Positions 48,273 through 49,741 of a stretch of DNA of 64,000 bases are shown here, one piece after another. How positions within the stretch are numbered: the first letter of the stretch is position 1; every line of letters begins with the position of its first letter. The position numbers and the translations under genes were made by a program. The notes beneath the pieces are model-generated. The model was not told the origin of the DNA. It was given only the letters and a program-made list of their open reading frames with translations, and searched no databases. This DNA is from Flavobacteriaceae bacterium (lineage in GTDB: Bacteria; Bacteroidota; Bacteroidia; Flavobacteriales; Flavobacteriaceae), in NCBI GenBank assembly GCA_013001285.1, contig JABDMU010000031.1:1-64000 (forward strand), written 5' to 3'.

Positions 48273-48978
48273 ATGCGACGAAATAGGTGAATAACAGTGC
48301 CACAATAATTGCAATGCCGAAGCTTATCAATGTACCAATAAGAATATACTCTGTAAGTTTTCGATGTTTTGATTCCTTGAGGTCTCCAAAACGAAATACC
48401 GATTTTGCTGTAATGAGAAACCCAACGGCTTCCCAATGTCCAACCACAATAAAAATAAAAACAAGTATTCGCTCAAGAATACCAATATAGGATCCTGCAT
48501 CTTTTAGGGAAGCATTGTCTTTTGTAAGCGCTTCAATATCCCATTTTGAAAATATGATCTTCATTATTATTGATGCAGGCCGTGTTAAAAATATAAGGCA
48601 AACTATGAGTAGTAGGGTATCGGGTTGGGACAAAACATCAAGGTCTATTGTGGCATCGGTAAAAAAGTAATAGGCAAACACAATTGACAACAGATGAAAG
48701 ATCTGATCTAGAACGAAAATAAGTCGCTTATTCTTTTCTGTTTGAATACTCAATTTAATAGCATCAATAATGAAATGAGAGGTACCAATAAATACGATCA
48801 ATGGCCAATAGGAAAGATCCCAAACCAGTATGAATAGCAAAACAAAGTGAATGGCAATATGCAGATATAATTGCGGAGAGCGCAATTTTTTAGTTTCATT
48901 TTGCCTTACTGATGCTTTGGTCTGTAGGAAAAAATCACCAATAATATGTGCAAGTAAAAGCTTTAAAAACAGAGTCAT
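48271..48978 (-). CDS. DUF3307 membrane protein, partner of SatD
   Basis: 235 aa, about six transmembrane helices. The N-terminal 'LLLAHIIGDFFLQTKASVRQNETKK' and 'HIAIHFVLLF', 'FIGTSHFIIDAIKL', 'FVLDQIFHLLSI' carry the conserved His/Asp-in-membrane pattern of DUF3307 (H-x-x-G-D-F, S-H-F-x-I-D, L-D-Q-x-x-H). Those polar residues inside helices hint at a metal or transport/enzymatic site; no function is established. Its ATG overlaps the satD stop (ATGA, 4 nt), so the pair is translated together. Confidence 0.85.
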   Translation of the reverse strand: MTLFLKLLLAHIIGDFFLQTKASVRQNETKKLRSPQLYLHIAIHFVLLFILVWDLSYWPLIVFIGTSHFIIDAIKLSIQTEKNKRLIFVLDQIFHLLSIVFAYYFFTDATIDLDVLSQPDTLLLIVCLIFLTRPASIIMKIIFSKWDIEALTKDNASLKDAGSYIGILERILVFIFIVVGHWEAVGFLITAKSVFRFGDLKESKHRKLTEYILIGTLISFGIAIIVALLFTYFVA

Positions 48979-49586
48979 AACTTTTTAATTAGTTGTTGGT
49001 ACATCTCATTTAACTCTAAAATACTATCAAGTTGTGCGCGTTTTTGTCTCTTACTAACCGCATTTTGATTGATATCTAACATTGATCCCAGATCCTTTTG
49101 CAACGCATTTGGGTGCTCTAATGACAATTTAACGACTTCAGCTGAGTTTGGCGTCCAGGTGTCCATGACCATTAAAGCAAATTTAAAGTACAAATTTAAT
49201 TGCGCATTTAGGTTCTGGTCAGGTGTTTTAATTTTCAAATTGAGTTTGTCTTTTTTCAAGGATTCCAGGGTTTCACCTGAAAATTGAAAAGCTTCTCCGT
49301 TTGATTCAACTAAAGATGCCCCTTCAAATGACTTCTCACCAAGACCTAAGGCCAATCTAACATCCAATCCTTTTGTCATTTTAATCACAGATTTTATATA
49401 AACCACAGTAAAGAATCCTTTTGTATTGTCCTGAAGTTCTAACTGGAAGCTATCGCCTCTGTAGATCTCCCATAAGTTGTCATTGGGTTGTACAAACCGA
49501 AGCGCCTTTTTTAAAGGTTTGAGCCAGATCTCCTGGTTCTCAATCGATCTTGATTTTATGATATCTCCGGTAAGTACTGTGACCAT
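48975..49586 (-). CDS. SatD-family protein: cyclase-like N-domain plus C-terminal HTH
   Basis: 203 aa. The opening 'VLTGDIIKSRSI' is typical of SatD (PF16264). Residues 1-112 also follow the class III nucleotide cyclase outline: Asp8 in 'GDI', Asp45 in 'YRGDSFQLEL', 'LDVRLALGLGE' (74-84), and 'GEAFQFSGETLESLK' (97-111), like 'GDAVNLAARLE' of cyclases. Residues about 160-190 ('ALQKDLGSMLDINQNAVSKRQKRAQL') form a helix-turn-helix. First gene of a two-gene unit with DUF3307 and directly behind four 28-bp-spaced repeats. I infer a DNA-binding regulator, possibly nucleotide-responsive; the cyclase likeness is my reading, not established knowledge. Confidence 0.8.
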   Translation of the reverse strand: MVTVLTGDIIKSRSIENQEIWLKPLKKALRFVQPNDNLWEIYRGDSFQLELQDNTKGFFTVVYIKSVIKMTKGLDVRLALGLGEKSFEGASLVESNGEAFQFSGETLESLKKDKLNLKIKTPDQNLNAQLNLYFKFALMVMDTWTPNSAEVVKLSLEHPNALQKDLGSMLDINQNAVSKRQKRAQLDSILELNEMYQQLIKKL

Positions 49587-49615: not shown

Positions 49616-49646
49616 CAAATATATTCTTTAAAAAGGGAATAAACAA
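49616..49646 (-). promoter_or_regulatory. Promoter of satD-DUF3307
   Basis: Minus strand TTG (49644-49646), 20-nt spacer, TATATTTG (49616-49623): a full consensus match about 30 nt before the satD ATG. The first repeat of the operator array (49621-49640) fills the spacer, so a protein bound there would exclude RNA polymerase. Confidence 0.7.
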
Positions 49647-49724
49647 ATATATTCCATAAAAAAAGAATAATTAATAATATTCCATAAAAAGGGAATATAT
49701 GTATATATTCTATAAAAAGAGACT
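49621..49724. repeat. Four tandem 20-bp operator-like repeats at exact 28-bp period
   Basis: Copies at 49621-49640, 49649-49668, 49677-49696 and 49705-49724, each separated by an 8-bp unconserved spacer. Consensus ATATTCCATAAAAAGGGAAT; copy 3 matches perfectly, copies 1, 2 and 4 differ at two to four positions. Within a unit, ATTCC and GGAAT form an inverted repeat. The array fills nearly the whole gap between rmuC (ends 49742) and satD, and overlaps the satD promoter. Confidence 0.85.
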
Positions 49725-49741
49725 ATTCAGAAAAATGAGGA

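Follow-up and report, generated by a model that had tools for sequence, protein, structure and literature searches.

SatD has, to our knowledge, been annotated solely through its link to a streptococcal secretion and acid tolerance operon. The architecture that we describe for it here, a palm-type domain with a helix-turn-helix (HTH), also occurs in CdaR/PucR and in the mycobacterial cyclase-AAA-LuxR proteins, which differ from SatD in that the palms of the former are degenerate and the latter are large multidomain proteins. Toxin-antitoxin operons with multiple operators are likewise familiar, for example hipBA with its TATCC-N8-GGATA sites, and we know of no transcription factor with a cyclase- or GGDEF-like domain that is associated with a fixed-period array. 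Palm enzymes carry one metal-ligand acidic residue where strand 1 ends and another in the hairpin that joins strands 2 and 3 (PMC2904730). In the Panoptes system, a palm enzyme is paired with a toxic 2TM-beta effector, and the enzyme's nucleotide restrains the membrane toxin (PMC12657230).

We analysed SatD in a 64,000-nucleotide stretch of DNA from a Flavobacteriaceae bacterium, hereafter the window. Its satD gene (PF16264; 48975..49586, minus strand) starts with ATG and encodes 203 residues, which score 32.6 bits against a Pfam gathering cut-off of 29. Homologues were collected by a PF16264 search of related genomes and of the whole phylum and aligned (A1), and AlphaFold2 modelling of the window protein with this alignment gave a mean pLDDT of 97.8 and a pTM of 0.93. 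An earlier note had read the protein as a class III nucleotide cyclase domain fused to an HTH, a reading that depended on a beta-alpha-beta-beta-alpha-beta palm. Residues 1-120 (49227..49586, minus strand) indeed form such a palm in the model, as beta-alpha-beta-beta-alpha-beta-alpha-beta: strand 2-10, helix 19-32, strands 39-42 and 46-51, helix 54-69, strand 75-83, helix 98-113 and strand 117-120, followed by a helical C-terminus with the HTH. The motifs lie where the note had placed them, with Asp8 in GDI and Asp45 in YRGDSFQLEL 37 residues apart, VRLALGLGE at residues 76-84 and GEAFQFSGETLESLK at residues 97-111. Asp8 (codon 49563..49565, minus strand), the first predicted metal ligand, falls within strand 2-10, at the end of strand 1 of the palm, and Asp45 (codon 49452..49454, minus strand), the second, sits in the GD hairpin between strands 39-42 and 46-51, as is characteristic of the palm superfamily.

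Comparison of the model with known structures by Foldseek returned GGDEF proteins, class III cyclases, mCpol, Cas10/Cmr2 and GTP cyclohydrolase III as the best PDB matches. The same groups, together with a Y-family DNA polymerase, which is a palm enzyme too, were recovered by VIA-align with Z of 8.7-10.0 over about 101-135 residues; one further row aligned 160 residues with a poor rmsd. The kinship with GGDEF, cyclase and Cas10 palms that the earlier note had proposed to look for thus appears at the top of the structural ranking. It is also visible independently of structure: when an N-domain profile (A2) was searched by sequence alone against 177,635 distinct PDB sequences, its six best matches were class III cyclase chains (E 0.00096 to 0.048), and D8 and D45 align with the cyclase metal aspartates in the top matches shown. 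Additionally, hhalign of SatD against class III cyclases of related genomes, the other comparison suggested in that note, gave a probability of 95.6 and a score of 49, compared with scores of at most 7.5 for column-shuffled controls (n = 20). With class III cyclases (PF00211; Ma1120, Rv1900c, Rv1264) SatD shares the palm fold, the strand-1 Asp, the GD hairpin Asp and the order of motifs, as well as a VR-x-x-x-G strand and a G-x-A-F stretch resembling the GDAVN loop. It differs from them in its shorter domain, its direct fusion to an HTH and the loss of the substrate Lys and the transition-state Asn. Some homologues read nearer still to cyclases in sequence (for example DIRGFTKL in L073 and DIVAFTSLS in L205), and the variants in L205 and L208 (DIVAFTSLS/DIVSSTGLH, KGDYLECV), which look nearer to true class III cyclases, could be intermediates. 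The genome of the window contains two genes for proteins with a class III cyclase domain (PF00211; G000 C69 and C9), and GGDEF families are almost missing from related genomes.

Residue conservation was counted over 156 non-redundant homologues, which include Bacteroidota, Balneolaceae, Proteobacteria, Chloroflexi, Verrucomicrobia, Spirochaetes, Fusobacterium and haloarchaea; start codons were set by rule, and the loci share ancestry, so the counts do not equal numbers of independent events. D8, G44 and D45 are present in 156/156, even though some homologues share as little as 16-20% identity with the window protein, and the conservation of both aspartates on which the earlier reading depended is therefore complete. 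Nearly invariant are G97 (155/156), S12 (154/156), which we take to be the position of the cyclase Ser/Phe in D-I-x-G-[SF]-[ST], and Q48 (151/156), along with G83 and W144. SatD thus possesses the two metal aspartates of class III cyclases. The class III substrate Lys, which precedes the GD Asp by four residues, corresponds to position 41, which is I, V or L in nearly all of the 156 homologues, and the transition-state Asn corresponds to position 101, which is H, Y, V, I, T or Q among them rather than Asn. The transition-state Arg (position 104) is found in 95/156 and is Gly in the window protein. With GGDEF diguanylate cyclases, to which it has the best Foldseek E-values, SatD shares the palm fold and, in two thirds of the family, a GDE (E46 in 106/156); in contrast to the GG(D/E)EF signature, the first Gly is replaced by Leu or Arg in most SatDs, and the window protein reads RGDSF. 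Of the class III likeness first proposed, then, the fold, the metal Asp pair and the profile match stand, whereas the residues for substrate choice and the transition state are not conserved, which weakens a literal class III cyclase reading. Judged by its sequence and predicted structure, SatD falls within the palm superfamily and its metal site is intact, but it is neither a class III cyclase nor a GGDEF protein of the canonical kind, because its metal residues are invariant and the class III Lys and Asn are not kept.

The C-terminal region (residues 144-201; 48984..49157, minus strand) is modelled as helices 146-157, 163-170, 174-183 and 186-201. Two of these, 163-170 and 174-183, coincide with the HTH that had been assigned to residues 160-190, and Pfam gives a sub-threshold Sigma70_r4-like HTH match at residues 141-184 of the window protein; Sigma70_r4/HTH-like matches recur across the family. 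In a Fusobacterium SatD (L215:3001-3792), the palm and the HTH are separated by an insert several tens of residues long, and DUF3307 is still next downstream.

Directly upstream of satD we found an operator-like array of four direct repeats with a 28-bp period (49619..49738, minus strand). It consists of dyads of about 20 bp, TATTCC-N8-GGAATA or a variant, spaced exactly 28 bp apart: counted from satD, TATTCTTTAAAAAGGGAATA (49622..49641), TATTCCATAAAAAAAGAATA (49650..49669), TATTCCATAAAAAGGGAATA (49678..49697) and a degenerate TATTCTATAAAAAGAGACTA (49706..49725). A promoter-like element, TTG-N20-TATATTTG (49616..49646, minus strand), of the -33/-7 consensus type used in Bacteroidota, lies inside the array, so that occupancy would block transcription. 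To measure the period at other loci, we matched the 150 bp that precede the satD start codon against themselves at lags from 15 to 45 and kept the best lag. Of the loci from the searches of relatives and the phylum, 70/78 have a best lag of 28 or 29 bp, as do 73/84 further loci from many phyla, compared with 9/157 control stretches from the same loci. With proteins more than 80% identical removed, 136/156 non-redundant loci, haloarchaeal plasmids among them, have a lag of 28 or 29, against a chance expectation of 2 of 31 lags; about one in eight is without the signal. In the loci L197-L216, which were fetched for other reasons, 17 of 19 non-redundant ones, haloarchaeal loci included, are at 28 or 29, not all of them individually significant against shuffles. 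Arrays of this kind recur at most other loci with different sequences (ATATGC/GCATAT, ATCGG/CCGAT, GTTTCA/TGAAAC, AACCA/TGGTT and more), often with imperfect dyad arms, and the spacing is constant across lineages while the dyad sequence diverges. The arrays of the R-G-D clade are mainly at 28 bp (35 vs 13), and those of the L-G-D clade are mixed (36 at 28, 44 at 29).

In the 2.88-Mb genome, the array motif with three or fewer mismatches has five matches, four of which are the array itself. The sole other strong match lies inside a coding ORF, and a wider SatD regulon was rejected on this ground; a looser pattern is no commoner in the genome than its backward control. With the motif almost confined to the array, a local autoregulator is the economical reading, and the earlier proposal of a one-component regulator of its own operon gains support from the HTH, from the array over the promoter and from how rarely the motif occurs outside the array.

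We favour, at a probability of roughly 0.6, a model in which SatD is a Mg-nucleotide-gated one-component autoregulator that represses its own operon by assembling on the phased array. We infer that SatD binds the array and represses from it, that a nucleotide, bound or made, is its ligand, and that DUF3307 is the output of the regulation. Under this model, SatD subunits would bind the dyads of the 28- or 29-bp-period array over the satD promoter and neighbouring subunits would touch through their palm domains, which would make repression cooperative. In B-DNA, 28-29 bp make up about 2.7 turns, which places each dyad on a different face of the helix from the next. Even so, the fixed length of the step implies a rigid contact between neighbours; because palm relatives work as dimers, the palm is the obvious candidate for that contact. 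Whether the assembly forms would depend on a Mg-nucleotide that the palm binds and possibly turns over, and the assembly state would set how much of the co-transcribed DUF3307 is made. Such a unit would resemble hipBA-type operons in being an autoregulated two-gene unit with several dyads and N8 between their arms, and differs from them in fold, in partner and in a period that stays constant across domains of life while the sequence varies. A more speculative extension, which we regard as a long shot, is that SatD forms a nucleotide-dependent filament on the array, in which the 28-29 bp step brings the palms of neighbouring dimers into class III head-to-tail pairing. SatD would then have active sites only when assembled on the operator, and DUF3307 would be a membrane effector under the control of both the repression and the nucleotide product. 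Were this true, it would amount to a DNA-templated cyclase switch that is widespread in Bacteria as well as Archaea.

The DUF3307 gene (PF11750; 48271..48978, minus strand) encodes a membrane protein of 235 aa and overlaps satD by 4 nt (ATGA). Neighbourhoods were counted at 162 loci, of which 156 have at least 800 nt of room downstream, and in 152 of these 156 a same-strand DUF3307 gene follows satD, mostly with a 4-nt overlap. DUF3307 was not detected at L077, L133, L158 and L178, which have the room; the satD frame of L158 is wrongly called. The 80 named loci were retrieved with an alignment of one sub-clade (A3), whose best matches they are. Among related genomes, 30 of 60 carry DUF3307, 16 of them with a Pfam-recognised satD; in the other 14, satD lies directly upstream of DUF3307 and went unreported by the Pfam search, so that the idea of DUF3307 without SatD was rejected for these 30 genomes. 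About half of the related genomes accordingly have the pair, and the rest lack it. Many Bacteroidota SatDs missed by the PF16264 search (L197-L210) are easily found with a family-specific profile, and through such misses annotation undercounts the pair about two-fold in Bacteroidota. Segatella, Vibrio, Pseudomonas and haloarchaea have plasmid-borne copies of satD-DUF3307; where satD lies on plasmids of Sphingomonas and Natronosalvus, its partner is an un-named ORF, and in many operons of L029-L046 a short partner of about 105-115 aa, comprising the DUF3307 part only, replaces the 235-aa form. The DUF3307 model is all-helical (pLDDT 94) and has no Foldseek match to known structures below E 0.001 and VIA-align Z of at most 6.1. 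In the long form E169, R170, K192, R196, E210 and Y211 are invariant.

This partner raises a second reading, unlikely in our estimate but deserving weight, in which the two genes form a Panoptes- or Pycsar-like pair: SatD would be catalytically active, as a nucleotidyl cyclase or a dinucleotide synthase, DUF3307 would be a membrane effector controlled by the product of SatD, and the HTH would be only autoregulatory. Like mCpol/OptS of Panoptes, SatD is a small palm protein encoded beside a membrane protein in a two-gene unit, mCpol is among its structural matches, and the invariant metal aspartates, the frequent E46 (GDE), the plasmid-borne copies and the invariant charged residues E169, R170, K192, R196 and E210 of DUF3307 are all as expected of such a pair, but I, V or L at position 41 and the lack of Asn at position 101 speak against class III catalysis. 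The partner, moreover, is predicted to be all-helical and not 2TM-beta, and SatD has an HTH, whereas none is mentioned for mCpol (PMC12657230). A role in defence, to which we found no link, was rejected: PADLOC anti-phage HMMs matched neither SatD nor DUF3307, a search for SatD relatives in phages and viral contigs found none, and the window locus sits among housekeeping-type genes. In Streptococcus pyogenes, satD is accessory (178/249 genomes) yet essential in Tn-seq (PMC11323703), a combination that would suit an antitoxin-like gene; loss of repression would account for the essentiality equally well, and the finding fits either model. Whether or not the palm turns nucleotide over is what decides between the preferred sensor-repressor and a signal-producing enzyme.

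That the palm serves only for SatD-SatD contacts and binds no nucleotide, like the degenerate GGDEF-like domains of CdaR/PucR, we consider decidedly improbable. Many palm relatives are sensors or scaffolds, and the substrate and transition-state residues are not kept in SatD, but D8, G44 and D45 are invariant in Bacteria and Archaea alike, down to the most divergent homologues. Co-variation with the operator is similar for the recognition helix (partial correlation 0.26 given the palm) and for the palm (0.31 given the HTH) and so fails to single out the HTH; operator-HTH co-evolution was rejected as a signal inseparable from general relatedness. This want of HTH specificity would suit an array that serves a different factor or has a function of its own as a repeat, with SatD acting elsewhere, a reading made very improbable by a constant period directly upstream of satD at 136/156 non-redundant loci in two domains of life and by the near-absence of the motif from the rest of the genome.

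A partial literature search returned no earlier description of these features, which does not by itself prove novelty. The analysis suggests a possible reason for the essentiality, in transposon data from S. pyogenes, of a satD that is accessory there (PMC11323703). More broadly, it assigns SatD, whose metal site is intact and which is tied to one membrane protein, to the palm nucleotide-cyclase superfamily, and points to a putative operator whose geometry is kept across two domains of life despite its changed sequence. The function of SatD thereby becomes directly testable, with defined point mutants, a DNA probe and a partner.
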